Assembly (NCBI RefSeq): GCF_004341235.1
Contig: NZ_SLUP01000009.1
Span: forward strand, 124,001 to 188,000
Source: Mariniflexile fucanivorans
GTDB lineage: Bacteria; Bacteroidota; Bacteroidia; Flavobacteriales; Flavobacteriaceae
Direction of reading: 5' to 3'
Length of the DNA: 64,000 bases
The translations under genes were made by a program, and so were the position numbers. Below the pieces are notes generated by a model. It saw nothing but the letters and a program-made list of their open reading frames with translations. It was not told the DNA's origin and did no database searches. This document shows, piece after piece, positions 44,638 to 60,196 of the stretch (within the stretch, counting starts at the first letter, position 1; each line of letters opens with the position of its first letter).

Positions 44638-46101
44638 TTATAATGCCACTAAATCGTCAATTTCGCTTTTAGTAGGCAAATCTGATTTGCCCATTAAATA
44701 AATATCCACTTGACGAGCAGCTTCACGACCTTCAGAAATTGCCCAAACAATTAATGATTGCCCTCTGCGCATATCGCCAGCTGCAAATATGTTAGGAATA
44801 TTGGTTTGGTATTTGCCATATTCAGCTTTATAGTTAGAACGAGCATCTTTTTCAATACCTAATTTATCTGCAATGGTGCTTTCTGGACCTGTAAAACCAA
44901 GAGCCAATAAAGCTAAATCGCATGGCCATGTTTTTTCTGTACCTGCAACCTCAATTAACTGAGGGCGCTCACCAGGAACCATTTTCCATTCAACATTTAT
45001 AGTTTTTAAAGCTGTTAACTTACCGTTAGCGTCCTTAACAAATTCCTTTGTGTTAATTAACCAGTTACGTTCCACGCCCTCTTCATGAGATGACGATGTT
45101 TTTAACTGTAATGGCCAAAAAGGCCAAGGGGTAGTAGGTGAACGGTGTCCTGGAGGTTTCGGCATAATTTCAAAATTCACTACAGATTTTGCTCCTTGAC
45201 GGTTTGATGTTCCAACACAATCCGATCCGGTATCTCCACCACCAATAACAATAACGTGCTTATCGGTTGCTAAAACTTGGTCTTTAACTTCTTTGCCAAA
45301 TAGCACTTTAGTTTGTTGGGTTAAAAAATCCATAGCTTGGACAACACCATCGGCATCGGCACCGGGCGTTGGTAAACTTCTTCTTAAAGTAGCGCCACCA
45401 CAAAGCACGACAGCATCAAACTTTTTAAGGTCTTTAACATCATAATTTACGCCAACGTTTACATTGGTTTTAAATGTAATGCCTTCAGCTTCTAATATGG
45501 CAACCCTACGGTCTATAATTCCTTTTTCCATTTTGAAATTAGGAATACCATAACGCAGTAAACCTCCAACTTCATCATCTCTCTCAAAAACAGTTACCGT
45601 ATGGCCAGCTCTATTTAATTGCTGAGCAGCGGCTAAACCAGCAGGACCAGAACCAACAACTGCTGTTGTTTTACCAGTTCTTACTTTTGGTGGTTGTGGT
45701 TTTATCCAACCTTCTTTAAAGGCACGTTCAACAATTTGTTTTTCGATGTTTTCAATAGAAACGGGGTCTTCAATAATACCTAATACACAAGACTTTTCGC
45801 AGGGAGCAGGACATAAACGACCTGTAAACTCTGGAAAATTGTTGGTAGCGTGCAATAACCATGAGGCTTTGTGCCATTCGCCTTGATGAACCATGTGGTT
45901 GAAATCTGGAATTAAGTTGCCAAGTGGGCAACCACTGTGGCAAAATGGAATTCCGCAATCCATACAACGCGATCCTTGTTTAGTGATTTCAGCTTCACTT
46001 AAAGGAATAGTAAATTCTTTATAATTTTTTACACGCTCTGGTACGGGCGCATTACTTTCATCTTGTCTTTCAAATTCTTTAAATCCTGTTACTTTTCCCA
46101 T
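44638..46101 (-). CDS. gltD: Glutamate synthase, small (beta) subunit
   Basis: A 487-residue FAD/iron-sulfur subunit that passes electrons from NAD(P)H to GltB. Two N-terminal cysteine motifs bind 4Fe-4S clusters: '[17 protein letters not shown]' and '[13 protein letters not shown]'. The FAD motif is '[20 protein letters not shown]' and the NAD(P)H motif is '[20 protein letters not shown]'. '[19 protein letters not shown]' is the C-terminal FAD segment. Length is normal. It starts 4 bases after the gltB stop, so the two are one operon. Confidence 0.97.
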
Positions 46102-46105
46102 GACA

Positions 46106-49100
46106 TTATGCTATTGTTAGTTCTTCTACCTGTTGTACTTCAGTTTCTAAGCGTATTAATGCTTTTTTGTATTCGGTAGGCATCACTTTTACAAAGTTTT
46201 TTAAACTAGTTTCCCAGTTTTCTAATAATTCTTTACCTCGGTTACTATTGGTGTATAGAACCTGTTTTTCAATTAATGATTTCAAATCTTGAGCATCTTC
46301 ATTTAAAATATCTTCAAATTCTATAGATTCTGTATTACACAATCCGTTTTTAAATTTATTTTCGGGATCGTAAACGTATGCAATACCACCGCTCATACCT
46401 GCTGCAAAATTTCTTCCTGTTTTACCAAGAACCACTACTTTTCCACCAGTCATGTATTCACAACCATGATCTCCAAGCCCTTCAACCACTGCAATGGCAC
46501 CAGAGTTTCTAACAGCAAAACGTTCACCAGCAATTCCGTTTATATAGGCTTCACCTTGAACAGCACCGAATAAACAAACATTACCAACAATAATGTTGTT
46601 CTCTGCAATAAAAGTAGCTTTAGCCGGTTTTTTGACGATTAATTTGGCCCCAGACAATCCTTTACCTAAATAATCATTCGTGTTTCCTTCCAAAATGAAT
46701 GTTAAACCATTGGCTCCAAAAGCTCCAAAACTTTGACCAGCAGATCCTGTGAAGTTTATATTTAAAGTATCTTCAGGCAACCCTAAATGACCATATATTT
46801 TTGAAATTTCGTTACTAACTATAGCACCCACCGTACGATCTGTATTGTGTATTGGGTAATCTAAAGTCATTTTTTCTTTTCTATATAAAGCTCTGTGAGA
46901 ATCTTTTAAGATTTTAAAATCAAGAACGTCATCTAAATTATGATCTTGTTTTTCGGTGTTTTTAACAGTCATAAGCTTATAGGCTTCTGGACGGTGTAAA
47001 ATAGCCGATAGATCTAAACCTTTTGCTTTATAATGTTTTATAGCTTTGTTTGCATTAATTTTATGGGTTTGACCAACCATTTCTGCCAAAGTTCTAAACC
47101 CTAATTGTGCCATAATACCTCTTAATTCCTCAGCAATGTAGTAGAAGAAATTAATAACGTGTTCTGGAGTTCCTTTGAAGTTTTTACGTAACTCTTTATC
47201 TTGAGTTGCGATACCTACTGGACACGTATTTAAGTGACACTTACGCATCATGATACAACCAGAAGCTACTAAAGGAGCGGTTGCAAAACCAAATTCTTCT
47301 GCACCTAATAAGGCTGCAATGGCAACATCGCGACCCGTTTTTAATTGGCCATCACACTCTACAACAATTCTACTTCTTAAGTTATTTAAAACCAAGGTTT
47401 GTTGTGCTTCGGCTAAACCAAGTTCCCAAGGTAAACCAGCGTGTTTTAATGATGTTAATGGAGAAGCCCCGGTTCCACCATCATATCCTGCTATTAATAC
47501 CACATCGGCTTTGGCTTTTGCTACACCCGCAGCAATAGTACCTACACCAACTTCAGATACAAGTTTTACGTTTATTCTTGCTTCGCGATTGGCATTTTTT
47601 AAGTCGAAAATCAATTGAGCTAAATCTTCAATAGAATAAATATCGTGATGCGGCGGCGGTGAAATTAAACCAACAAATGGGGTTGAGTTACGTGCCGCAG
47701 CAATCCATGGTAATACTTTTTCACCAGGTAATTGTCCACCTTCACCAGGCTTAGCTCCCTGAGCCATTTTTATTTGTATTTCCCTAGCATTGGTTAAGTA
47801 ATGTGATGTAACACCAAAACGACCAGAAGCTACTTGCTTAATAGCCGAGTTTCTGCTATCGCCATTTAAATCTGGGTGGAAACGTTTTCTATCTTCACCA
47901 CCTTCACCAGAGTTAGATTTACCTCCAATACGGTTCATAGCAATCGCTAAGTTTTCATGCGCTTCTCTAGAAATAGATCCATAAGACATCGCTCCTGTTT
48001 TGAAACGTTTCACGATTTCGGTCCAAGGTTCAACTTCTTCTAAAGGAATTGGGTCTAATTTATCAAATTCAAATAAACCACGGATGGTCATTAAATTTTC
48101 AGACTGTTCGTTGATGGCTTTTGCATACACATCGTAACTCGCTTGGTCACTTAATCGAACTGCTTGTTGTAATTTTGAAACAGTTGTTGGGTTAAACATG
48201 TGGCGTTCACCATTACGTCTCCATCTGTAATCGCCTCCAATATTTAATCCTAAACGTTTATCGATTAAATTATCTGGGTATGCGTATTTGTAACGCTCGG
48301 TAATTTCTTTTTCAATTTCATACAAACCAATACCTTCAATTCTTGAAGCTGTATATGGGAAGTATTTTTCAACAAAAGCAGAATTAAAACCAACGATTTC
48401 GAAAATTTGAGAACCTCTGTATGAATGTAGCGTTGAGATTCCAATTTTATTCATCACTTTTAATATGCCCGAACCAATAGCTTTATTGAAATTATTAACG
48501 GCCTTTTGCTCGTCCATCCCCGTAATAAAGCCTTCTTTTACTTGGGCTCTAATTATTTCGTTCACCATATAAGGGTTGATGGCACTCGCACCATAACCAA
48601 ATAAGGTAGCAAAATGATGTGGCTCACGTGGTTCTGCAGATTCAATAATAATATCGAAGTATGAACGTTTACGTAAGCGGTTCATTTGATGGTTTACATA
48701 AGAACATGCTAACAGTGCTGGAATAGGTGCGAAATCTTTATTTACACCTCTATCTGATAAGATAATGATATTTACACCATTATCTATTGCTTTAGATACT
48801 TGAATAATGATATCTTCCAAAGCATCTTCTAAACCGTTAAGACCTTGAGCTTTCGGGTATAAAATATGAATAGTTTCTGCTTTAAAACTTTCGATGGTAA
48901 TAGTTCTAATTTTTTCTAGATCGGCATTAGAAATTACAGGGTTTTGTATTCTTAATTTTCTACATTGTCTTTTAGTAATGCTGAAAATATTTCTGTCTTT
49001 ACCTAGATTTAAACTAATATCTGTTACAATTTCTTCGCGGATACCATCTAAAGGTGGATTGGTAACCTGTGCGAATAATTGTTTGAAGTAGTTAGAAATT

Positions 49101-50620
49101 AATTGTGGTCTATCTGATAATACCGCTAAAGGCGTATCAGTACCCATAGAGCCTAAGGCTTCTTTGCCAGAAACCGCCATAGGCGTAATTACTTCTTGAA
49201 TATCTTCAAATGTATAGTTAAATAAACGTTGTCTCGTTTTAACATCAATGGTTTCTATAGGGCAAGTTTCGTTGGTATAAGGGACATCTTTTAAATGTAA
49301 ACGTGTTTGGTCCAACCATTTTTTATATGGTCTTTCAGAAACAATTTTACTTTTTATTTCTTCATCTTCAATAATACGACCCTTGTTCATATCTACCAAG
49401 AACATTTTTCCTGGTTCCAATCTACCATGTCTTTCTACATCTTCAGGCGCAATATCTACGACACCAATTTCCGAAGCCATAATTAATTTACCACTTTTGG
49501 TAATAGTATATCTTGAAGGTCTTAGTCCGTTTCTATCTAATAAAGCACCAATATAATCACCATCTGTGAAAGGCACAGATGCAGGTCCATCCCAAGCTTC
49601 CATAATACAAGCGTTGTATTCGTAGAATGCTTTACGCTCTTCAGACATGGTTTTATGCTTTTCCCATGCTTCAGGAATCATCATCATCATGATTTCCGGT
49701 AACGATCTGTCGGTGTGTGTTAACAACTCAACCACCATATCCATAGAAGCAGAATCTGATTTTCCAGGTAAAATAATTGGGAATAATTTTTCAATTTGCG
49801 GGCCAAAAACGTCGCTTTTCATGATCTCTTCGCGTACACGCATTCTACTTACGTTGCCACGAAGGGTATTGATTTCACCATTTTGACACATAAAGCGGAA
49901 CGGTTGTGCCAGTTCCCAAGTAGGCATCGTGTTGGTAGAGAAACGCTGGTGTACTAACGCCAAACGCGTTACTAAGTCAATTTGTTGTAAATCGGTATAA
50001 TAAGGCCCAATATCTTCAGGCATGATAATACCTTTGTATATAAGGGTTGTTGTTGACAAACTTGGCACGTAAAAGTAGCCGCTTTCAGAAATTTTAGATT
50101 TTCTAATAGCATGTTCTGTTATTTTACGAGCAGCAAATAATTTTGCTTTAAAAACAGCTTCTGTTATATCTTCCGTTTTTCCAATAAATATTTGCTCTAT
50201 TTTAGGTTCCGATGCCAAGGCGATTTCCCCTAATTGAGAAGAATCTACAGGTACATGTCTCCATCCTAAAATAGCAAGTCCTTGTTCTTTTATTTCCTTT
50301 TCAAAAGTATCTTTACAGAATTGATATTGATTAGGCACTTTAGGCAAAAACACCATGCCCACCGCATATTCTCTTTGGGCAGGAATACTAAAATTACAAA
50401 CACGTTTAAAATAATCGTGAGGAATATCAATTAACAAACCAGCCCCATCACCGGTTTTTCCATCAGCACTTACACCGCCTCGGTGCTCTAACTTCACTAG
50501 AATTTCTAACGCATCGTGAATAATTTGATTTGTTTTCTCTCCTTTTAGATTACAAATAAAACCTGCACCACAATTTTCGTGTTCGAATTCAGGTAAATAC
50601 ATTCCTTGTTTCTTCAGCAT
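46106..50620 (-). CDS. gltB: Glutamate synthase, large (alpha) subunit
   Basis: A 1504-residue enzyme making two glutamates from glutamine and 2-oxoglutarate. The N-terminal class II glutaminase nucleophile is the Cys of '[12 protein letters not shown]', residue 17 from this start and exposed after removal of a short propeptide. The central and FMN domains follow ('[20 protein letters not shown]', '[14 protein letters not shown]'). The 3Fe-4S motif is '[17 protein letters not shown]', and the C-terminal GXGXG beta-helix includes '[19 protein letters not shown]'. ATG 50620 is chosen over a TTG at 50629; a further ATG at 50602 is possible. It assimilates ammonium in concert with the Amt transporters to its right. 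Confidence 0.97.
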
Positions 50621-51086
50621 AATCAACAAATATTGGTTTAAAACTTGAGTTGAAACGCTAAGATATGACCTTGTTTTTGAATAACAATAGAGGGGAATTC
50701 ATTATTTCGATTTTAGAAGCGAAGTTTAACTTAAAATAATGATATATCAATAATAATGACATTTTTTAACAAATATTCAACACCTATTATTATAGTATAA
50801 TTAAGAAATACTGAAATTATGTTAAGGAATTCTCATATTTATGTTAATAAAGCTATTAAAAATTAGAAAATACTGACAATACTTCAATTGAACAGTTTAC
50901 CAAAAAACCAAAAATTTAAAAAAAACACAAGACACCCTATAAAAAATAGGGTTAAAATTGAAATATTCACAAAAATATATCAAATACCCCTATTTTTTGA
51001 TGGGGTTATGTTTTTTTAATATAGTTTTGAGCCATTCTTAAGGAACATTAACCAATAAAAAATTAATAACTTAAAATTTAAACATT
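50621..51086. other. Divergent intergenic region between gltB and the porin gene
   Basis: This AT-rich 466-base region holds no gene. It contains two copies of an AAATACTGA core (50806-50814 and 50868-50876, the second as AAATACTGACAATA). It also has a small palindrome CCCTAT-AAAAA-ATAGGG (50935-50951), ACCCC/GGGGT arms around 50986-51007, and the porin promoter. A possible minus-strand -7, TATTTTTG (50977-50970), would give gltB a leader of about 340 bases; this is uncertain. Confidence 0.5.
50997..51029 (+). promoter_or_regulatory. Promoter of the porin gene
   Basis: TTG (50997-50999), 22 bases, then TAGTTTTG (51022-51029), an exact TAnnTTTG. TACCCCTA lies 4 bases before the TTG (50985-50992). 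The leader to the ATG at 51087 is about 50 bases. Confidence 0.7.
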
Positions 51087-52112
51087 ATGAAAAAATTAAT
51101 AACCCTTTCAATGCTTTTTATGGCTGCTGTAGTATTTGCACAAGAAGAGGATTCGAAAAAATTCACCATTAGTGGGTCAGTTGACGCTTATTATCAAACT
51201 TATTTAACCGCTCCTGATGATCAAGCCCCTTCATTCGGAACTGCTTTTGCAGGACAATCAGGTTTTTCTGTAGGTATGGGAAACATTATAGCTAGTTATG
51301 AAGGAGAAAATGTAGGTGCTGTACTTGATTTAGTAACTGGAGCAAGAGGAGCTGGTGCTACTTTTAACTCTGATATAGTTAATGGTATTGTTAATCAGGC
51401 TTATGTTTACTGGAATGTTTCAGAAGGAACAAAATTAACTTTTGGTAGATTTAACACGTTCTTAGGATATGAGGTTATTTCTCCTGCAGCAAATTTTAAC
51501 TATAGTACTTCTTATTTATTTTCAAGCGGACCTTTCTCTCATGTTGGTTTAAAAGCTGATTTTGCTTTATCTGAAGATTTTAGCTTAATGTTAGCAATAA
51601 CTAACCCGTGGGACACTAATGACACATCTTCAAGTGGAGAATATGCTTTAGGAGCTCAATTAGGTTATAAAGGACAGTTTTTAAATCTTTATTATGATAG
51701 TGGTAATAACGATGGTTTAGGGTTTGAAATCGACTATACAGGGGGGTTTGATATGACTGATAGCTTCTTCTTAGGTATTAATGCTGCTTATAATGATAAT
51801 GATGGTCAAGGTTTTTACGGTGCGGCTTTATATCCACAGCTAGCGACCTCTGATGCTTTCAGTATTGGATTAAGAGGTGAGTATTTCTCTCTTCATGGAG
51901 ATGGAGATGATTACCCAAGTGTTTTCGCTACAACTTTAACTGGAAGTTATACTATAGATAACTTAATAATTAAGCCAGAGATCAGATTAGATGCTTTATC
52001 GAATGCCGATGGAGGTATTTTTTATCCAGATGGTAGTAATGTAATAGATAATGATGGACTTCCTACAGATAGCTTAGCTGCATTTACTTTAGCTGCAATT
52101 CTTACTTTCTAA
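51087..52112 (+). CDS. Outer-membrane porin, BBP2 (OmpL-like) type
   Basis: A 341-residue beta-barrel with a signal peptide (MKKLITLSMLFMAAVVFA, then QEED). The first strand 'KFTISGSVDAYYQTYL' and the segments 'QAYVYWNVSEGTKLTFGRFN' and 'FNYSTSYLFSSGPFSHVGLK' are typical of the beta-barrel porin-2 family. The C-terminus is 'LAAFTLAAILTF', a membrane-insertion strand with terminal Phe. It is directly upstream of the first ammonium transporter and divergent from gltB, so it may provide the outer-membrane path for nitrogen compounds. That role is inferred from position. Confidence 0.87.
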   Translation: MKKLITLSMLFMAAVVFAQEEDSKKFTISGSVDAYYQTYLTAPDDQAPSFGTAFAGQSGFSVGMGNIIASYEGENVGAVLDLVTGARGAGATFNSDIVNGIVNQAYVYWNVSEGTKLTFGRFNTFLGYEVISPAANFNYSTSYLFSSGPFSHVGLKADFALSEDFSLMLAITNPWDTNDTSSSGEYALGAQLGYKGQFLNLYYDSGNNDGLGFEIDYTGGFDMTDSFFLGINAAYNDNDGQGFYGAALYPQLATSDAFSIGLRGEYFSLHGDGDDYPSVFATTLTGSYTIDNLIIKPEIRLDALSNADGGIFYPDGSNVIDNDGLPTDSLAAFTLAAILTF

Positions 52113-52146
52113 TAATGGAATAAATACACAACAAACAAACATGGAA

Positions 52147-52183
52147 AATAAAGCAATTCAAAATAAAATTGTTTTGCTTTATT
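52147..52183 (+). terminator. Hairpin between the porin and amt copy 1
   Basis: AATAAAGCAA pairs with TTGCTTTATT around a loop of 17 bases, 35 bases after the porin stop. It could end part of the porin transcripts and lower expression of the amt gene behind it. Confidence 0.55.
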
Positions 52184-52214
52184 CTCTCTAACTAACCCTT
52201 AAAAACTTTTTACT

Positions 52215-53519
52215 ATGTCAATATTTAACATGCCCCTAATAATTCAAGATGCCACAGCTGTTGAAGTACTAGCCGAATCTGTTAAAGGTGATATGGGAAT
52301 GCTATGGATGCTTATATCCGGTATTTTAGTATTCTTTATGCAAGCAGGATTTTTCTTAGTTGAATCTGGAATGACCGATTCAAAAAACGCTGTTAACATC
52401 GCCATGAAAAATTTCCTAGACATTGCAGTGGGCTCATTAGCCTTCTGGTTTGTTGGGTATTCTTTAATGTATGGAGCAGATGCTTCAGGAGGTTTCTTCC
52501 ATTGGGGAGGTTTTACCTTCTCTCAAGGTGCAGCCGATTTATTTTTCCAAACTGTATTTGCCGCTACTGCCGCTACTATAGTATCTGGAGCTATTGCAGG
52601 AAGAACTAAATATACAACATATGCTATTTTTAGTATCATCATGACGGCTCTTATCTACCCAATTGCTGGTGGATGGGAATGGAATGGTGGTTGGTTAAAT
52701 AATACTGATGGTATTATGCCTGCTGAATTTATTGATTTTGCTGGATCATCCATTGTGCACTCTGTTGGTGGATGGGCAGCTTTAGTTGCTGCTTGGATGG
52801 TTGGTCCTAGAATTGGTAAATTCTTAAACGGAAAACCAGTTGAAATGCACGGTCACAATCAAATGTATGCAACTTTAGGTGTATTCATCCTTTGGTTGGG
52901 ATGGTTCGGTTTTAACGGTGGTTCTCAATTAGCTTGGGGTGGCGATGATGCTACTGCTGCTTCACAAGTAGTGCTTGTAACCAATTTGGCGGCTTCTGCT
53001 GGTGCTATTGCTGCCTTACTGTTCACTTGGTTCAAAAATGGAAAACCAAATTTAGCAATGACGTTAAACGGTGCGCTAGCTGGTCTTGTAAGTATTACTG
53101 CTGGTTGCGGAAACATGACCGAAGGTGGTGCAATACTAGCTGGATTAATTGGAGGATTGCTCGTTGTTTTCTCTATTGGTTTTGTTGAAAGAACTTTGAA
53201 AATTGATGATGCTGTAGGTGCTATATCTGTACATGGTGTTGCCGGTGCTTGGGGAACTTTAGTTATAGGGCTTTGGGGTGTAGATGGCGATACTGGTATA
53301 GGCTTATTTAATGGTGGTGGTGCCGCTCAATTAGGTGCTCAAGCTATAGGTGTTTTGGCTTATGCAGTATGGTCCATAGGATTGTCATATATTTTCTTGC
53401 TTATTTTGAAAAAAGCAATAGGACTAAGAGTGTCTGAAGCTGAAGAAATTGCAGGTCTTGATATATCTGAGCATGGTTCCTTAGCTTATCATGGTAAAAG
53501 ACAAAGAGAAATAGACTAG
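52215..53519 (+). CDS. amt: Ammonium transporter, copy 1
   Basis: A 434-residue Amt/Rh channel in the inner membrane with about eleven helices. The conserved features of E. coli AmtB are present: the Phe gate in 'FFQTVFAATAATIVSG', Asp174 in 'FIDFAGSSIVHSVGG' (ammonium site) and the twin pore histidines His182 and His340 ('AISVHGVAGAWGTL'). 'LGWFGFNGGSQLAWGGDD' is the family signature. The C-terminal tail for PII contact reads 'LRVSEAEEIAGLDISEHGSL' and then diverges from copies 2 and 3. A PII gene follows 144 bases downstream behind a terminator. Confidence 0.96.
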   Translation: MSIFNMPLIIQDATAVEVLAESVKGDMGMLWMLISGILVFFMQAGFFLVESGMTDSKNAVNIAMKNFLDIAVGSLAFWFVGYSLMYGADASGGFFHWGGFTFSQGAADLFFQTVFAATAATIVSGAIAGRTKYTTYAIFSIIMTALIYPIAGGWEWNGGWLNNTDGIMPAEFIDFAGSSIVHSVGGWAALVAAWMVGPRIGKFLNGKPVEMHGHNQMYATLGVFILWLGWFGFNGGSQLAWGGDDATAASQVVLVTNLAASAGAIAALLFTWFKNGKPNLAMTLNGALAGLVSITAGCGNMTEGGAILAGLIGGLLVVFSIGFVERTLKIDDAVGAISVHGVAGAWGTLVIGLWGVDGDTGIGLFNGGGAAQLGAQAIGVLAYAVWSIGLSYIFLLILKKAIGLRVSEAEEIAGLDISEHGSLAYHGKRQREID

Positions 53520-53542
53520 CTCATAATTTTAAATAAAAATCG

Positions 53543-53576
53543 AAAAAAGCCTTATTAATTTTAATAAGGCTTTTTT
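53543..53576. terminator. Terminator between amt copy 1 and PII copy 1
   Basis: AAAAAAGCCTTATTA pairs perfectly with TAATAAGGCTTTTTT around a 4-base loop and ends in a T tract. It separates amt copy 1 from the first PII gene. Confidence 0.88.
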
Positions 53577-53663
53577 GGGTTCATAAAACTAAAATTATTT
53601 AAAAAAAGCTTTTTAAAGAGTTATTGAATTTGAATATAACTATTAAATAAATATATACTTATT

Positions 53664-54002
53664 ATGAAAAAAATCGAAGCGATTATTAGAAAATCCAAGT
53701 TTCGTGTGGTGAAAGAGGCATTGCATGAAGTTGGGGTAAATTTTTTCTCTTACTGGGATGTTACTGGTATAGGAAACGAAAAAGAAGGGCATGTTTACCG
53801 TGGCGTTTCTTATAGCACCAGTGATATTCAGCGTAGGCACTTGGCTATTGTTGTTAATGATGATTTTGAAGAAATAACCATAAAAGCCATCCTTAAGTCT
53901 GCAGCAACAGGTGAAGTTGGTGATGGTAAAATTACAGTATCAGATATTACAGAATGTTACAGAATTAGAACTGGGGAAAAAGGTGGAGAAACCTTAAGAT
54001 AA
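53664..54002 (+). CDS. glnK: PII family nitrogen regulator, copy 1
   Basis: A 112-residue trimeric signal protein that binds ATP/ADP and usually 2-oxoglutarate, and blocks Amt channels with its T-loop. The B-loop 'TGEVGDGKITVSD' and C-loop 'YRIRTGEKGG' are conserved. The T-loop (37-54, 'GNEKEGHVYRGVSYSTSD') is unusual: E. coli Arg38 and Gln39 are replaced by Asn and Glu. Gln39 coordinates Mg and 2-oxoglutarate. Tyr50 aligns with the uridylylated Tyr51. It is followed after 33 bases by amt copy 2, so this pair is probably cotranscribed. glnK versus glnB naming rests on the Amt linkage. Confidence 0.93.
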   Translation: MKKIEAIIRKSKFRVVKEALHEVGVNFFSYWDVTGIGNEKEGHVYRGVSYSTSDIQRRHLAIVVNDDFEEITIKAILKSAATGEVGDGKITVSDITECYRIRTGEKGGETLR

Positions 54003-54035
54003 CCCATTGCAATAATCAATTTAAATAATTTAATT

Positions 54036-55277
54036 ATGGAAGATATAGTAAAAAATATAGCCGAAATTAATGGAGTACTTGACATTATGTGGATACTAAT
54101 TGCAGGCGCATTGGTTTTCTTTATGCAAGCAGGCTTCACACTAGTAGAAACTGGATTTACCAGATCCAAGAATACTATAAACATCATCATGAAAAATTTA
54201 ATGGACTTCTGCATCGGGTCGGTTGGGTTTTGGTTAATAGGGTATGCACTTATGTACGGTGATGATATAAGTAGTTTTATAGGAACCCCTTCATTATTTT
54301 ATAACGAAGCAGGGGAAATGCATAATTTGTTTTTTCAAACCGTTTTCTGTGCAACTGCTGCAACAATAGTATCTGGCGCCATTGCAGAAAGAACCAAATT
54401 CACAACATATTTAGTGTTTTCATTGACTATGACCGTACTTATATATCCAGTCTCAGGACATTGGGTATGGCAAGGTGATGGTTGGTTAACCGATTTAGGG
54501 TTTATTGATTTTGCAGGTTCGAGCGTCGTGCATTCCGTAGGTGGTTGGGCAGCCTTGGTGGCAGCTATTATGGTAGGCCCTAGAATTGGAAAATACACCA
54601 ATGGAAAATCTAATGCCATACCAGGACACAGTATATTACTGGGCGCATTAGGTGTGTTTATCCTGTGGTTAGGTTGGTATGGATTTAATGGTGGTTCTCA
54701 GTTAGCGATTTCTGGCGAAAATGTAACCGCAGTATCAAATGTTATCATTACAACCAATTTAGCAGCAGCAGCAGGCGGACTTGCCGCTATGTTTTTTACA
54801 TGGATAAAATATGGGAAACCAGATGCATCCATGACATTAAATGGGGTGCTTGCAGGATTGGTAGGTGTAACCGCTGGTTGTGCCGTTGTAGATAATTTTG
54901 GAGCCATGGCAATAGGTATTATTTGTGGAATATTGGTTGTGCTTTCTATTGAATTTATAGACAAAAAATTAAAAGTGGATGACCCTGTAGGCGCGGTTTC
55001 GGTTCACGGAGTTTGTGGTGCTGTTGGTACATTATGTGTTGGTTTATTTGCAACTGATGGTGGATTATTCTACGGAGGTGGATTTGGGCAATTAGGCGCG
55101 CAAGCAGCTGGTGTTTTTGGAATAGGAGCTTGGGCTATAGCTACTTCATTCGTCGTTTTATTCATTCTTAAGAAAACTATGGGCTTAAGAGTTTCTGAAA
55201 AAGAAGAAGTAGAAGGTCTTGATATCCACGAACATGGTATGGAAGCGTATCCAGATTTCAGATTAAACGAACATTAA
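54036..55277 (+). CDS. amt: Ammonium transporter, copy 2
   Basis: A 413-residue Amt channel with 'MQAGFTLVETGFTRSKNTIN' at the start, the Phe-gate segment 'FFQTVFCATAATIVSGAIAE', Asp158 in 'FIDFAGSSVVHSVGG' and the twin histidines His166 and His324 ('AVSVHGVCGAVGTL'). It lacks the extra N-terminal 12 or so residues of copy 1. Its tail ends 'EHGMEAYPDFRLNEH', a sequence shared almost exactly with copy 3 and absent from copy 1. It lies 33 bases after PII copy 1 and is followed by a hairpin and a separate promoter for PII copy 2. Confidence 0.96.
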   Translation: MEDIVKNIAEINGVLDIMWILIAGALVFFMQAGFTLVETGFTRSKNTINIIMKNLMDFCIGSVGFWLIGYALMYGDDISSFIGTPSLFYNEAGEMHNLFFQTVFCATAATIVSGAIAERTKFTTYLVFSLTMTVLIYPVSGHWVWQGDGWLTDLGFIDFAGSSVVHSVGGWAALVAAIMVGPRIGKYTNGKSNAIPGHSILLGALGVFILWLGWYGFNGGSQLAISGENVTAVSNVIITTNLAAAAGGLAAMFFTWIKYGKPDASMTLNGVLAGLVGVTAGCAVVDNFGAMAIGIICGILVVLSIEFIDKKLKVDDPVGAVSVHGVCGAVGTLCVGLFATDGGLFYGGGFGQLGAQAAGVFGIGAWAIATSFVVLFILKKTMGLRVSEKEEVEGLDIHEHGMEAYPDFRLNEH

Positions 55278-55311
55278 CAATATCATATTTTATAAATAAA
55301 ATGTTTTTTTT

Positions 55312-55344
55312 AAAAGTATCCCTAATATTTTGGGGGTACTTTTG
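55312..55344. terminator. Terminator-like hairpin after amt copy 2
   Basis: AAAAGTATCCC pairs with GGGGGTACTTTT around about 9 bases. The T tract beyond is interrupted (GTTATTTTG), so termination may be partial. The right arm also contains a TACTTTTG sequence like a -7 element. Confidence 0.6.
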
Positions 55345-55382
55345 TTATTTTGTTATTTTTCATAACGTACACCCCTAGTATT

Positions 55383-55413
55383 TTGCCGACTTTGAATAAA
55401 TTTTATATTTTTG
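55383..55413 (+). promoter_or_regulatory. Promoter of PII copy 2
   Basis: TTG (55383-55385), 20 bases, then TATTTTTG (55406-55413), 30 bases before the ATG. ACCCCTA (55371-55377) sits 5 bases before the TTG, the same element as before the -33 of the porin promoter at 50986-50992. Confidence 0.65.
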
Positions 55414-55443
55414 GTTTTTTGAATTTTAAAATTTTTATTACAA

Positions 55444-55782
55444 ATGAAGAAAATTGAAGCAATTATTAGAAAATCTAAATATCGTGTCGTTAAAGAGGCT
55501 TTACATGAAGTTGGAGTGAACTTTTTCTCTTACTGGGATGTAACTGGTATTGGAAACGAGAAAGAAGGACATGTATATAGAGGTGTTTCTTATAGTACAA
55601 GTGATATTCAACGCAGACATATAGCAATTGTTGTAAATGATGATTTTGAAGAAGTAACGGTACAAGCCATTCTTAAGTCTGCCGGTACTGGTGAAGTAGG
55701 CGATGGTAAAATTTTTGTATCTGATATAAATGAGTGCTATAGAATAAGAACCGGAGAAAAAGGCGGAGATACTTTAAAATAA
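55444..55782 (+). CDS. glnK: PII family nitrogen regulator, copy 2
   Basis: A 112-residue PII protein differing from copy 1 at only about ten positions (for example Phe13 to Tyr, Lys74 to Gln, Thr91 to Phe). The T-loop is identical to copy 1, including Asn38, Glu39 and Tyr50. The B-loop 'TGEVGDGKIFVSD' and the C-loop are intact. Its tail is 'GGDTLK'. It has its own promoter and lies 32 bases before amt copy 3, so each PII gene forms a unit with the amt that follows it. The strong similarity points to duplication or gene conversion. Confidence 0.93.
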   Translation: MKKIEAIIRKSKYRVVKEALHEVGVNFFSYWDVTGIGNEKEGHVYRGVSYSTSDIQRRHIAIVVNDDFEEVTVQAILKSAGTGEVGDGKIFVSDINECYRIRTGEKGGDTLK

Positions 55783-55814
55783 TAACCATCTAAACAAAAC
55801 AATAAAATAAAATT

Positions 55815-57041
55815 ATGGAATTACTTACTACAAATAATGTATGGATGATGATCTGTACGGCACTAGTGTTTTTTATGCACCTTGGATTTTCACTTCTAGA
55901 AATAGGGTTAACAAGACAAAAAAATACGATAAACATATTATTTAAAAATATTTTTATCATTACCATTGGGTTGCTTCTTTACTGCTTCGTAGGCTTTAAT
56001 TTAATGTATCCAGGGGAATTTAACGGCTTTTTAGGATTTGCAGGATTTGGTTTAGATTCACCATTAACTGCTGAAGGTGCTTTAGATTTAACTTATAATC
56101 AAGGCTACACGTACTGGACAGATTTCTTATTCCAGGGTATGTTCGCAGCTACTGCTGCCACTATTGTTTCTGGAGCAGTTGCAGAGCGTGTTAAAATTGT
56201 ACCATTCATGATTTTTACAGTATTATATGTAGGGTTGGTTTATCCAATCGCTGGATCTTGGAAATGGGGTGGTGGATTTTTAGACCAAATGGGTTTTTAT
56301 GACTTTGCAGGTTCTACACTAGTACATTCTGTAGGTGGTTGGGCAGCCGTTGTAGCTGTTTGTTTATTAGGCCCACGTATAGGTAAATTTAAAAACGGAA
56401 AAGCACAAGCTATTCCTGGACATAACATTCCTTTGGCAACAGCCGGCGTATTAATCCTTTGGTTAGGATGGTTCGGTTTTAATGGAGGTTCTGTACTTTC
56501 AGCAGATCCAGGATTAACATCTTTAACACTTGTAACAACTTGTTTAGCCGCCGCAGCTGGTGGTGTAGTAGCTATGTTAGTTTCAACAGTTATGTATAAA
56601 AACTTAGATTTAACCATGTTCTTAAATGGTATATTAGGTGGTTTAGTTGGTATTACCGCAGGGGCCGATGTTGTTAGTCCAACAAGTGCCATTATTATTG
56701 GTGCAGTGGCGGGTACTTTAATTGTATTAGCGGTAAGTTTTATTGATAACAAATTAAAATTAGACGACCCAGTTGGAGCTATTGCAGTTCACTTGGTATG
56801 TGGTATTTGGGGGACTTTAGCCGTAGGTATATTTTCTACAAATCCAGAACATAGTTTCTTAACCCAATTAATAGGTGTTGCTTGTTATGCTGTTTTCTGT
56901 TTAGCGACATCATTTATTATCATATTTACGCTTAAGAAAACAATGGGAATACGTGTTCCTGAAAAAGAAGAATTAGAAGGATTAGATGCACATGAACATG
57001 GTATGGATGCTTATCCTGATTTCAGGTTGAATGAGCATTAA
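55815..57041 (+). CDS. amt: Ammonium transporter, copy 3 (divergent)
   Basis: A 408-residue Amt channel that keeps the key residues: Phe-gate segment 'FQGMFAATAATIVSGAVAE', Asp163 in 'FYDFAGSTLVHSVGG' and the twin histidines His171 and His326 ('AIAVHLVCGIWGTL'). It differs from copies 1 and 2 in the N-terminal helices ('MHLGFSLLEIGLTRQKNTIN', 'NIFIITIGLLLYCFVGFNLM') and carries a longer extracellular loop (about residues 66-100, 'FNGFLGFAGFGLDSPLT'). The tail 'EHGMDAYPDFRLNEH' matches copy 2. It may have a different affinity or partner. Confidence 0.95.
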   Translation: MELLTTNNVWMMICTALVFFMHLGFSLLEIGLTRQKNTINILFKNIFIITIGLLLYCFVGFNLMYPGEFNGFLGFAGFGLDSPLTAEGALDLTYNQGYTYWTDFLFQGMFAATAATIVSGAVAERVKIVPFMIFTVLYVGLVYPIAGSWKWGGGFLDQMGFYDFAGSTLVHSVGGWAAVVAVCLLGPRIGKFKNGKAQAIPGHNIPLATAGVLILWLGWFGFNGGSVLSADPGLTSLTLVTTCLAAAAGGVVAMLVSTVMYKNLDLTMFLNGILGGLVGITAGADVVSPTSAIIIGAVAGTLIVLAVSFIDNKLKLDDPVGAIAVHLVCGIWGTLAVGIFSTNPEHSFLTQLIGVACYAVFCLATSFIIIFTLKKTMGIRVPEKEELEGLDAHEHGMDAYPDFRLNEH

Positions 57042-57066
57042 CATATAAACTAATTATATAACATTG

Positions 57067-57108
57067 AAAAAGAGATGTTTTACTACCATGTAAAGCATCT
57101 CTTTTTTT
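57067..57108. terminator. Terminator after amt copy 3
   Basis: AAAAAGAGATG pairs with CATCTCTTTTTTT around an 18-base loop that itself can pair partly (TTTAC/GTAAA). A T tract follows. Confidence 0.82.
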
Positions 57109-57130
57109 GTATTATAAAATTGAACAAGTC

Positions 57131-57162
57131 TTGAAATACTGACAATATTTTATTTAATTTTG
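57131..57162 (+). promoter_or_regulatory. Promoter of PII copy 3, with an embedded AAATACTGACAATA element
   Basis: TTG (57131-57133), 21 bases, then TAATTTTG (57155-57162), 26 bases before the ATG. AAATACTGACAATA (57134-57147) lies between the two promoter elements; the identical 14-mer occurs at 50868-50881 in the gltB-porin gap. Confidence 0.65.
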
Positions 57163-57187
57163 ATAAAAACTATTAAATGGAGTTATT

Positions 57188-57526
57188 ATGAAGAAAATTG
57201 AAGCCATCATTAGAAAATCTAAATACAGTGCAGTAAAAGATGCTTTACATGAAATAGGTGTAAATTTTTTCACTTATTGGGATGTAACCGGTATTGGAAA
57301 TGAAAAACAAGGACATGTTTACAGAGGTATTTCGTATAGTACTAGCGATATTCAACGTAGGCAATTATCTATTATCGTGAACGATGATTTTGAAGAAATA
57401 ACTATTCAGGCTATTTTAAAATCGGCTGCAACTGGCGAGGTTGGCGATGGAAAAATCACGGTGTCAGATATAAACGAAACTTACAGAATACGAACTGGAG
57501 AAAAAGGCGGTAACACTTTAAGGTAA
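57188..57526 (+). CDS. glnK: PII family nitrogen regulator, copy 3
   Basis: A 112-residue PII protein, more divergent than copies 1 and 2 ('KYSAVKDALHEIGVNFFTYW'), but with the same T-loop features: Asn38, Glu39, Gln41 instead of Glu41, and Tyr50. The B-loop 'TGEVGDGKITVSD' and 'YRIRTGEKGGNTLR' are intact. It is the only PII gene here not followed by an amt gene; ppc converges on it. Its own promoter carries the 14-mer shared with the gltB-porin region, so it may be regulated together with those genes. Confidence 0.93.
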   Translation: MKKIEAIIRKSKYSAVKDALHEIGVNFFTYWDVTGIGNEKQGHVYRGISYSTSDIQRRQLSIIVNDDFEEITIQAILKSAATGEVGDGKITVSDINETYRIRTGEKGGNTLR

Positions 57527-57546
57527 CTAGCTTTCAAATTAAACAT

Positions 57547-57587
57547 AAAAAAGGCTGTCTGAAAAAAATCACGACAGCCTTTTTTTT
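57547..57587. terminator. Bidirectional terminator between PII copy 3 and ppc
   Basis: AAAAAAGGCTGTC pairs with GACAGCCTTTTTT around a 13-base loop, with T tracts in both directions. Confidence 0.88.
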
Positions 57588-57607
57588 ATAAAAATTCTAT
57601 TTTAAAC

Positions 57608-60196
57608 TTACGCCGAGTTTCTACTGGCGTTAATATTTCCAAATAAAGAACGTGTTACTATTTTTTCAAATATCTTTATTTTTTCTTCGTTGTTAACAGG
57701 GTCTTTTTCAAGTTCTTGAATCTTTTTAAGGGCGTATTGCTGTATCGTTAGCAACGGCAACACTATAGATTCTCTCACTTCAATCGAAGCTTTTCCGGAA
57801 GGTTCATTTTCCATCAATTCTTGGTAGCCTGTAAGTTTTAATAAAAGGGTTTTTGTTGTAACATATTCATTGTAAATAATAGTCCAAAAATCGCCAAACT
57901 CGGCATCTTTAGCCATGTATTTTGTTAAATCGAAAAAGGATTTAGACAATGCCATCATACTGTTTTCTAACAACGTCTTAAAGAATTTAGAATTCTTGTA
58001 TAGTTGTTCTACTTTATAAAACTCACCGCTATCTTCATATTTTTTTAGGGCAGCACCTACACCAAAAAATCCGGGTACATTTTGTTTTAACTGGCTCCAA
58101 GAACCTACAAAAGGAATGGCTCTTAAATCTGAAAACACTAATTTATCTGAACTACCTCTTTTTGACGGTCTGCTTCCAATATTAGTTTTCGCATAGTATT
58201 TTAAAGTACTCATGCGTTCTAAATAGGGGATGAACATAGCATGATTTTTAAAATCTTTATAGGCTTGGTAACTGGTTGTAGCCAATTCGTTCATAACCAC
58301 TCTATCATCATCAGACATGTCGTGTTTATTACTTCCCAATCGGTTAAACATACCAGAACTTATTAATTGTTCTAAGTTGTATTGCGATGAATCTAAAGTT
58401 CCGAAGTTTGAACTAATCGTTTGTCCTTGAATAGTAAGTTGAACTTCTTTATCTTCAATATTTGGGCCTAAAGAAGCGTAAAATTGATGTGTCTTTCCAC
58501 CTCCACGTGCTGGTGGTCCACCACGTCCATCAAAAAATATAGCAGTAATACCATATTTTCTAGACATTTCAGTAAGCATTTCTTTAGCGGTATAAATACC
58601 CCAGTTTGCCATTAAGTAACCACCATCTTTAGTTCCGTCAGAGAAACCTAGCATAATGGTTTGTTTGTTTCCACGGCTTTTTAAATGCTCCATATAAGCT
58701 GGGTTTTTATAAAGCTGCTCCATAACTGCTGGTGCATTTTCTAAATCGGGAATAGTTTCAAAAAGTGGCACCACATCAACAGGTAAACTATCTTTAAAAG
58801 CTACAATTTTAAGCATGGCGAAAAGTTGCATCATGTTTAAAGCTGTTTGGTTGTTACTAATAATATATCTATTAGCAGCACGCTCGCCGTTAGTTTCTTG
58901 TATGGTTTTTATAGCTTCAATAGTTTTTAAAGTGTTGGAAACCATTTCATCTTCAAAAACATTTACATCTACAGACACATTTTTAACTTCCGAAAGGATT
59001 TTAATTTGTTCCGCTTCGGTTAAATCGTGATAGTTTTTCGGGAACGATGGGTTTCCTGTACTAATAATATGGTCTATAACCGTTGTGAAAACTGAATGGT
59101 GAATTCGGCTATCTTGTCTTATATCTAAAGTTGCAAAATGATAGCCAAATAAATGAATTCTATTTATTAAACTATTTATTTCATTAACATAAAGTGATTG
59201 GAAATCTTTAACAATTAAATTTCTAATGCTTAATAATTCAGTAAGAAGTTCTTTTGCAGAAATAGCTTTCGAGTAATCTAAATTGATGCTGTTTTTGTAC
59301 AAAATAGTTTCTAAACGAACTATACGCTCTTCAACACCTCTAAAGGTAAGTTTACGTCTTAAGTTTTTTAAATCGCCATAATATTTTTTTAAAGCAGCTT
59401 GTCTAAGTTTTTTTGCTACACGAATGGTAGTGTCTGGTTTTACAAATGGATTTCCATCGCGGTCACCACCTGGCCAAAACCCAATATTAATAATTTCGTT
59501 ATGCTTCTTAGAATCGTCATAAATATTTTGTTGGATGTAATTATAAATTTCTCCAAAAGACTCATAAAATACGTTTTCTAAATACCAGATTAAACTTTTT
59601 GCCTCATCATAAGGCGTTGGTTTTTCGTGTTTAATAAAAGGTGTTTTTCCTAATTGCCCAAATAAATTGTGGATGTTTGAAAGGTTGTTGTCTTTTATAG
59701 CTTGTGTTAAATCGGTAATAATTCCTAAAACAGATCCAGGATAAAATTGGGTAGGGTGCGCCGTTAAAACGATACGAACCTTAAACTCTTCGAGATAACT
59801 TTGCAATTCCTCAAGACTGTTATTTGAAACAGCCGATTCTTTAAGGTTTCTTAAGGTACCTATCCCCTCCATATTGTTAACAATAGGGAAAGCGGCATCT
59901 TCAACAGCATCAAATAAAACCACTTGGCGTTCTATATATTGAATAAACCTGAAAAGTAAATTAATTTGACTTTGTGCGTCGCGTCTTGCTTGGTATTTTT
60001 TAAAAAAAAGATCGACTATGGTTGTTGGGTCATCGCCGTTTGCAAACCCCTTTTTACAAGTTTCATGAAACAACGGTAAAAGTACCCCTGTTTTTGTAAT
60101 GGAATCAAAAGGCAACGTCATAAATATACTATTGTATATTTGGTATTTTGCCAGTACATTTTGTTTAAATCGTGTTAATTTTGGTTCTACAGACAT
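57608..60196 (-). CDS. ppc: Phosphoenolpyruvate carboxylase
   Basis: An 862-residue cytosolic enzyme adding bicarbonate to PEP to make oxaloacetate, an anaplerotic reaction. The catalytic-His segment is 'IVLTAHPTQFYPGSV', with Gln where most enzymes have Glu. Other active-site segments are 'GFWPGGDRDGNPFVKPDTT', 'LGFSDGTKDGGYLMANWGIY', 'FFDGRGGPPARGGGKTH' and 'RAIPFVGSWSQLKQNVPGFF'. Length is near the 883 of E. coli. The C-terminus ends in RNSA rather than the usual NTG, a small deviation near the inhibitor site. It is transcribed alone. Its substrate links it to the SulP/carbonic anhydrase cluster. Confidence 0.95.
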   Translation of the reverse strand: MSVEPKLTRFKQNVLAKYQIYNSIFMTLPFDSITKTGVLLPLFHETCKKGFANGDDPTTIVDLFFKKYQARRDAQSQINLLFRFIQYIERQVVLFDAVEDAAFPIVNNMEGIGTLRNLKESAVSNNSLEELQSYLEEFKVRIVLTAHPTQFYPGSVLGIITDLTQAIKDNNLSNIHNLFGQLGKTPFIKHEKPTPYDEAKSLIWYLENVFYESFGEIYNYIQQNIYDDSKKHNEIINIGFWPGGDRDGNPFVKPDTTIRVAKKLRQAALKKYYGDLKNLRRKLTFRGVEERIVRLETILYKNSINLDYSKAISAKELLTELLSIRNLIVKDFQSLYVNEINSLINRIHLFGYHFATLDIRQDSRIHHSVFTTVIDHIISTGNPSFPKNYHDLTEAEQIKILSEVKNVSVDVNVFEDEMVSNTLKTIEAIKTIQETNGERAANRYIISNNQTALNMMQLFAMLKIVAFKDSLPVDVVPLFETIPDLENAPAVMEQLYKNPAYMEHLKSRGNKQTIMLGFSDGTKDGGYLMANWGIYTAKEMLTEMSRKYGITAIFFDGRGGPPARGGGKTHQFYASLGPNIEDKEVQLTIQGQTISSNFGTLDSSQYNLEQLISSGMFNRLGSNKHDMSDDDRVVMNELATTSYQAYKDFKNHAMFIPYLERMSTLKYYAKTNIGSRPSKRGSSDKLVFSDLRAIPFVGSWSQLKQNVPGFFGVGAALKKYEDSGEFYKVEQLYKNSKFFKTLLENSMMALSKSFFDLTKYMAKDAEFGDFWTIIYNEYVTTKTLLLKLTGYQELMENEPSGKASIEVRESIVLPLLTIQQYALKKIQELEKDPVNNEEKIKIFEKIVTRSLFGNINASRNSA

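Follow-up and report, generated by a model that had tools for sequence, protein, structure and literature searches.

In a 64,000-nucleotide stretch of the Mariniflexile fucanivorans genome (contig NZ_SLUP01000009.1, positions 124,001 to 188,000; hereafter the window), three ammonium channel genes (amt) alternate with three genes for PII regulators. We read this array, with a probability of roughly 70%, as a long nitrogen-uptake locus made of four transcription units, in which three old channels would draw on one pool of PII proteins for ammonium scavenging when carbon is high and nitrogen is low. The genes amt1, PII1, amt2, PII2, amt3 and PII3 all lie on the + strand between 52215 and 57526, and the open reading frames (ORFs) and Pfam matches agreed with the order, coordinates and strand proposed in an initial annotation of this DNA. 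Pfam searches of the whole genome (99.96% complete) found three Amt and three PII genes, every one of them inside the array. The features of the locus and its neighborhood are listed here; the names gltB, gltD and phosphoenolpyruvate (PEP) carboxylase are presumed from the ORF sequences.

44638-46101, - strand: gltD, presumed glutamate synthase small subunit, a neighbor that adjoins the locus in many relatives (ORF)
46106-50629, - strand: gltB, presumed glutamate synthase large subunit, divergent neighbor (ORF; synteny)
50630-51086, no strand: gltB-porin divergent regulatory region, with an ACCC...GGGT palindrome pair 54 bp apart and one AATACTGACAATACT palindrome
51087-52112, + strand: BBP2 (OmpL-like) porin, first gene of the proposed porin-amt1 unit (PF07642, E 4.3e-59)
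52215-53519, + strand: amt1, clade A1 ammonium channel (PF00909, E 1.1e-116; trees)
53543-53576, + strand: symmetric terminator-like hairpin after amt1 (hairpin scan, which lists it on the - strand)
53664-54002, + strand: PII1 (glnK-like), first gene of the proposed PII1-amt2 unit (PF00543, E 7e-19)
54036-55277, + strand: amt2, clade A2 ammonium channel (PF00909, E 5.9e-131; trees)
55311-55344, + strand: terminator-like hairpin after amt2, in a stretch kept by some amt2-less relatives (hairpin scan)
55444-55782, + strand: PII2 (glnK-like), first gene of the proposed PII2-amt3 unit (PF00543, E 6.2e-21)
55815-57041, + strand: amt3, clade A3 ammonium channel (PF00909, E 9.6e-121; trees)
57066-57107, + strand: terminator-like hairpin after amt3 (hairpin scan)
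57135-57149, no strand: AATACTGACAATATT palindrome before PII3, 38 nt from the PII3 start codon
57188-57526, + strand: PII3, lone trailing PII in a GlnB-like position (PF00543, E 7.7e-21; clade of seven trailing PIIs)
57608-60196, - strand: presumed PEP carboxylase, convergent neighbor (ORF; synteny)

All six array genes matched their Pfam families, and the gene upstream of amt1 matched the BBP2 porin family (PF07642). The Amt proteins scored 390, 437 and 404 bits against PF00909 (cut-off 23.2) and covered the profile from 1 to 399 of 399, and the PII proteins, which are about 112 residues long, scored 68.5, 75.1 and 74.8 bits against PF00543 (cut-off 25). AmtB relies on twin histidines, a Phe gate and Asp, Trp and Ser pore residues. 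The AmtB residues F107, W148, D160, H168, W212, F215, S219 and H318 are retained in Amt1, Amt2 and Amt3, which marks the three proteins as ammonium channels, with transport itself predicted.

The suggestion in the initial annotation that the three Amt proteins differ was borne out by deep divergence in trees. Protein identity is 60.0% between Amt1 and Amt2, 49.1% between Amt1 and Amt3, and 54.2% between Amt2 and Amt3. Amt3 has the longer loop ascribed to it (36 residues before the FFQ helix versus 19-20 in Amt1 and Amt2, about 16 longer by alignment count) and a shorter N-terminus, but its N-terminal helices, which had been described as different, still align. The tail AYPDFRLNEH is common to Amt2 and Amt3, as had been noted, and occurs in only 4 of 20 A2 rows. 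A first, quick tree contained 116 rows, Amts of odd length or with stops having been excluded (set reduced from 162 to 152 beforehand). It set 64 A3 rows apart on a branch roughly 1.3 changes per column long (99*) and held 31 A1 rows together (99*), with the 20 A2 rows in an unresolved fork with A1. In a careful tree of 67 rows chosen by hand from the 116, with long rows excluded and labels taken from the quick tree, A1, A2 and A3 were each set off from all other rows by one branch (support 99/99, 97/91 and 100/100), with one window copy in each. Both trees placed amt1 nearest to its own genus, amt3 nearest to congener L086, and amt2 nearest to G161 (L107), L006 and L008; among the loci compared, 80 named ones are the best of 565 confirmed PII1 relatives, found with patterns from PII1. 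The Flavobacteriaceae locus L064 (amt1-PII-amt3) is absent from the Amt tree and from the unit-border counts given below. Since three deep clades contain one window copy each, the Amts are old paralogs, and A1, A2 and A3 are three old clades found across Flavobacteriaceae.

PII1 and PII2 are, as the initial annotation stated, almost identical proteins (91.1%, 102/112), with identities of 86.6% for PII1 and PII3 and 83.9% for PII2 and PII3. At fourfold sites, PII1 and PII2 are 39% identical (41 sites), and the PIIs overall are 26-39% identical. Since 91% protein identity is paired with 39% fourfold identity, PII1 and PII2 are not recent copies; their likeness suggests that selection has acted on the protein, perhaps alongside ancient gene conversion. 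A recent tandem amplification that raised gene dosage with interchangeable copies would suit the 84-91% identity of the PII proteins and the recovery of just one other three-Amt array (L006) among the best 80 of 565 loci. We nevertheless regard this explanation as highly improbable given the deep Amt clades, the low fourfold identity of the PIIs, and the 37-44% fourfold identity of amt2 with its counterparts in L006, L008 and L107. In addition, the remnants described below mean loss in relatives, not gain in the window. The fourfold sites and the Amt trees thus contradict the view that all copies are recent duplicates, which the initial annotation had named as the finding that would speak against it.

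Gene order and conserved borders favor a division of the array into porin-amt1, PII1-amt2, PII2-amt3 and an isolated PII3. The initial annotation had described a repeat of amt-glnK; the alternation held, but the direction of the unit did not, in that the repeat is PII-amt and amt1 goes with the porin. Its separation of PII1-amt2, PII2-amt3 and PII3 was supported by borders conserved over 115 array-type Amts (31 A1, 20 A2 and 64 A3). A PII gene lies directly upstream of 19 of the 20 amt2-type, all 64 amt3-type and none of the 31 amt1-type genes in these relatives, and a porin lies directly upstream of 30 of the 31 amt1-type genes; many loci were fetched by PII query, such that closeness to a PII is partly by construction although gene order is not. 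PII1 and PII2 are linked to an amt, as a GlnK is, and PII3 has no amt behind it. The PII-to-amt gaps have medians of 33 nt (amt2-type) and 23 nt (amt3-type), with a terminator-like hairpin in 1 of 85, and the window gaps measured 33 (amt2) and 32 bases (amt3), matching the 32-33 bases previously given. Amt-to-PII gaps are at least 106 nt long and contain a terminator-like hairpin in 37 of 50 cases (one canonical pair with a 38-nt gap is not counted), under a terminator rule that misses some AT-rich hairpins, e.g. in L006. The gaps after amt1, amt2 and amt3 of the window are 144, 166 and 146 bases long and hold one hairpin each, while a scan of 50600-57700 on both strands returned 13 terminator-like sites, mostly intragenic (shuffle mean 4.1).

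TAnnTTTG, the Bacteroidota-type -7 box, precedes PII2 and PII3 in the window. Across loci, this box was found in 11 of 12 gaps between an Amt and a PII that no amt follows (shuffled mean 2.0, maximum 5), 12 of 31 amt1-to-PII gaps (mean 4.0, maximum 9), 4 of 6 amt2-to-PII gaps (mean 0.8, maximum 5), and 16 of 39 gltB-porin regions (mean 2.5, maximum 7), and in none of the 27 porin-to-Amt gaps that measure 60 nt or more (mean 0.9, maximum 4). Because porin-to-Amt gaps carry no box and the borders are conserved in relatives, we place amt1 as the second gene of a porin-amt1 unit; a Formosa study likewise proposes one operon for the porin and an ammonium transporter (PMC6246565). The earlier proposal that each later PII has its own promoter or an upstream terminator held in part: a hairpin follows each amt and a box precedes PII2 and PII3, but no box precedes PII1. 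A further hairpin lies between the porin and amt1 (52146-52184, AAAGCAATT...AATTGTTTTGCTTT), is found in congeners, and was left in L084 and L015 after amt1 loss; it may lower amt1 relative to the porin.

Linked PII and Amt genes are usually taken as matched pairs, whereas here the channels diverge and the regulators stay alike. The initial annotation raised specific PII-Amt partnerships, and a version in which each PII gates its downstream Amt while the three Amts span different ammonium ranges would account for the PII genes sharing units with amt2 and amt3, for the 49-60% identity of the Amts, and for their differences in tail and outer loop. We consider such private pairing unlikely, since amt1 has no PII of its own, the T-loops of PII1 and PII2 are identical, the shared tail is found in so few A2 rows, and the PIIs linked to A2 are rejected as a clade across the family. 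This last result comes from a PII tree of 99 rows that omitted the canonical PIIs of L088, L092 and L100 and loci L042-L083 (including L043 and L064, both Flavobacteriaceae). The 18 A2-preceding rows required 13 label changes, at least nine of them on starred branches alone, and their union in one clade was rejected by the approximately unbiased (AU) test (p 5.5e-7). The rejection was stronger with 19 A2-preceding rows, the count once L116_P1 was relabeled (it was first labeled as preceding A3, its Amt, with an in-frame stop near the start, having been filtered out), and also with only amt-preceding PIIs (83 rows). Among 10 genomes with both kinds of unit, the two PIIs were direct sisters in three (L016, L018 and L121). 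Specific partnerships were thus not supported, and on these sequence comparisons, distinct channels that share one PII pool are the better fit. The comparison of synteny and trees over Flavobacteriaceae, which had been suggested as a check, yielded distinct old Amts and conserved unit borders.

Several observations weigh against our reading of the locus. The PIIs of L014, L116 and L120 group by position, as partnership predicts, with those of the remaining genomes that have both unit kinds, the window included, in weakly resolved parts of the tree. A clade of PII1 with the amt2-linked PIIs of L006, L107 and L008 was not rejected among near relatives (AU p 0.24). Seven trailing PIIs, including PII3, form a clade of their own (support 100/94), such that the pool may have two classes; forcing the full 11 trailing PIIs found in the near set into a single clade gave p 0.044. 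The TAnnTTTG scan found no recognizable promoter box before window PII1, and the retained pore residues are compatible with differing affinities.

The three-Amt form is uncommon in our samples and looks old. A sample of 249 family genomes, with roughly one or two from each genus, contained 181 that carry a PII and 194 that carry an Amt. Three Amts were found in 5 of the 249, and the window genome has all of them in one row; in G022 and G089 the third Amt is in a separate pair (L092 and L100), in G264 it lies outside the L121 array stretch, and G188 is fragmentary. The same full array was found in one of the best 80 of 565 loci, L006 of Confluentibacter sediminis. The 55 fetched regions were picked for Amt and PII genes, and shares among these loci and regions are not a census. 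Five genomes of the same genus have porin-amt1-PII-amt3-PII (three), porin-PII-amt3-PII (one) or porin-PII-amt3 (one). Near-kind amt2 and amt3 without amt1 are present in L008, L107 and L140, with a trailing PII in L008 and L140. When amt2 was searched for in 397 family genomes, likewise with roughly one or two from each genus, identity of at least 80% was found in G161 (93%) and G349 (87%) besides the window, with the next at 79%. In L014 (Wenyingzhuangia gilva), L116, L120 and L149, two tandem PIIs lie between the Amts (porin-PII-amt-PII-PII-amt).

Shortened arrays in relatives contain remnants of lost modules. The 90 bases downstream of amt2 recur in the amt1-PII gap of 4 of 29 amt2-less amt1-PII loci (L086, L089, L101 and L103), whose scores exceed every shuffle; a few other scores among the 29 loci (for instance those of L109 and L119 with the PII2 gene and of L114 with the stretch downstream of amt2) reach or just pass the shuffles, as expected by the number of comparisons, and were not counted. 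In L089, from the same genus, the gap comprises about 12 bases before a PII gene and 50 bases of its start, followed by some 70 bases of the amt2 gene end and downstream region. Since this gap holds both module ends, the PII-amt2 module was deleted there. In L084 (of the same genus) and L015 (Confluentibacter citreus), the leader between porin and amt1 persists although amt1 is gone, with the amt2-downstream stretch of L015 scoring weakly (47 versus a shuffle maximum of 42). L087 showed no amt2-side trace, and L096, L085, L009 and L010 showed neither kind of trace. In both genera that yielded a full array, shortened arrays with remnants occur as well. The most economical interpretation of these sequences is an older long array that was pruned more than once, with the window holding a long, probably ancestral form of the locus. 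This loss of modules in congeners, together with deeply diverged channels and similar regulators, makes shared versus private PII control testable in one locus.

Gain of PII1-amt2 by horizontal transfer, with the PII gene as recombination site, would instead explain why amt2 shares 93.0% identity with its counterpart in another genus (G161, L107) when amt3 of the same pair is 84.2% identical, why amt2 is missing from all five same-genus genomes searched, and why window PII1 groups with the PIIs of its genus (94/85 support in the 99-row tree, 86/80 in a smaller near-relative set). However, fourfold identity with L107 is about the same for amt2 (43.6%) as for amt3 (41.2%), such that a recent horizontal gain of amt2 was not supported, and two congeners have amt2-side remnants, one of them with both module ends. 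We therefore doubt that transfer brought in the module and favor the pruning of an ancestral long array.

The regulatory region upstream of the porin carries an ACCC...GGGT palindrome pair 54 bp apart (50932-51007). Pairs spaced 50-58 bp apart were present in 32 of 44 gltB-porin or gltB-PII regions versus 0 in 60 shuffling rounds, for a pattern that was formulated after viewing the regions and that related regions share by descent. Genome-wide, the double palindrome had one other match, within an ORF, and no nitrogen-assimilation gene was recognized beside single sites, whose neighbors were judged by eye without a family search. The pair is possibly the double operator of a regulator. A AATACTGACAATATT-like palindrome lies at 50869-50883 in the gltB-porin region and at 57135-57149 before PII3. 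Allowing up to two mismatches, it was found in 20 of the 44 regions (shuffled mean 1.9, maximum 5) and at 36-39 nt before the start of 8 of 12 PIIs that have an Amt before but not after them (that of L116, among the 12, precedes another PII); it may couple PII3 to the expression of gltBD. As a genome-wide nitrogen operator this palindrome was rejected, with 24 places at up to one mismatch versus 14 in a reversed control, and no regulon was seen, as 2 of 15 inspected places lie outside ORFs of at least 90 codons, one of them before PII3. An Rfam search of 50500-57800 returned nothing close to the gathering score. The neighboring gltB occurs in two types, about 69% identical, and G161 and G349, which belong to one genus, differ in type beside similar arrays, which suggests gene replacement.

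We compared PII residues in 99 Flavobacteriaceae-type rows and 43 others (including L043, Salegentibacter), which were gathered by likeness to PII1 or by the array and are no census. Position 39 is Glu in 98 of the 99 Flavobacteriaceae-type rows and Gln in the other, and position 57 (E. coli Lys58) is Arg in all 99. The 43 other rows have Ser (18), Ala (13), Glu (6), Thr (5) or Met (1) at position 39, and no Gln. Of 145 rows, 142 have a T-loop shorter by one residue, and the other three are PIIs of separate canonical pairs. In these pairs (L088, L092 and L100, from the array-bearing genomes G004, G022 and G089), amt precedes PII, and the PIIs combine Gln39 and the longer T-loop with a Gln at the Tyr51 position. 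In PII proteins generally, GDGK and R-x-R are B- and C-loop elements of the ATP site, and a T-loop arginine plugs the Amt pore. All 99 Flavobacteriaceae-type rows retain the ATP-site residues G86, D87, G88, K89, R100 and R102 as well as the pore-plugging Arg46 (E. coli Arg47). PMC8395244 covers some of these ATP-site roles, and PMC3198391 describes the plugging of the Amt pore by the Arg at E. coli position 47. In Archaeoglobus fulgidus GlnK3, Gln39 binds Mg with ATP and 2-oxoglutarate and swaps with 2-oxoglutarate on Lys58, as described in PMC3198391; PMC8395244 also assigns Gln39 and Lys58 to the PII 2-oxoglutarate switch.

Judging from these residues, array-type PIIs stay within the PII family, but the usual 2-oxoglutarate switch cannot be assumed for them. 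The GlnD domain PF08335 was not found in this genome (99.96% complete), in a search whose control finds GlnD in 3 of 14 genomes, E. coli included. We tentatively propose, as an idea that may well prove wrong, that the array PII is a rewired sensor (Glu39/Arg57, shorter T-loop) and that a GlnD-less pool gates three Amt types while PII3 acts elsewhere. A Glu39-Arg57 salt bridge could firm up the blocking state, and could alter the response to 2-oxoglutarate, ATP and ADP. These observations point to a bacterial group whose PIIs lack the glutamine that has been reported as central to 2-oxoglutarate sensing; our search of one open-access literature collection found no paper on triple Amt/PII arrays in Flavobacteriaceae or on a Q39E PII.

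In the model that we favor, the locus would most likely boost both ammonium uptake and glutamate synthesis under nitrogen limitation, with induction under these conditions presumed for this strain. When nitrogen suffices, the near-equal PIIs would most likely form a single pool able to plug any channel. A PII gene in front of amt2 and amt3 would allow regulator and channel to be made together, while amt1, without its own PII, would rely on the pool. PII3, which stands by itself with a promoter of its own, would be the best candidate for acting on non-Amt targets.

Compared with known systems, the locus looks like a longer variant of a described locus kind rather than a new system. In Formosa strain B (FORMB_11920 region), a porin-amt operon, glutamate synthase, a second Amt and a P-II lie together as in the window, and PMC6246565 reports protein from this cluster (porin, ammonium transporter, P-II and glutamate synthase) with glucose or laminarin and not with peptone alone; there, the authors propose peptide uptake for the porin. 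L105 has porin-amt1-PII-amt3 beside gltBD, with two Amts and one PII, to which the window adds the PII1-amt2 module and the trailing PII3. The E. coli glnK-amtB operon (NC_000913.3) resembles the window in having PII directly before amt and in sharing the pore residues and the T-loop Arg, but it is a single pair, its GlnK carries Gln39 and Lys58 and has one more T-loop residue, and the GlnD domain is found in that genome.

Haloferax mediterranei has several Amt/GlnK pairs like the window, with paired transcription and 86% identical GlnKs, but it is archaeal and has two pairs in amtB-glnK order, according to PMC3831643, which also reports that GlnK1 and GlnK2 were both pulled down by AmtB1. A. 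fulgidus has three Amts like the window, each in an operon with a GlnK, and PMC3198391 describes a GlnK2 that does not bind 2-oxoglutarate and a GlnK3 that does, whereas the window PIIs are alike at the ligand positions compared. L006 of Confluentibacter sediminis has the same order of gltB, porin, amt1, PII, amt2, PII, amt3, PII and PEP carboxylase. Its gltB is of another type (67% identical) and its two amt-linked PIIs group elsewhere in the tree, but its trailing PII shares a clade with window PII3.

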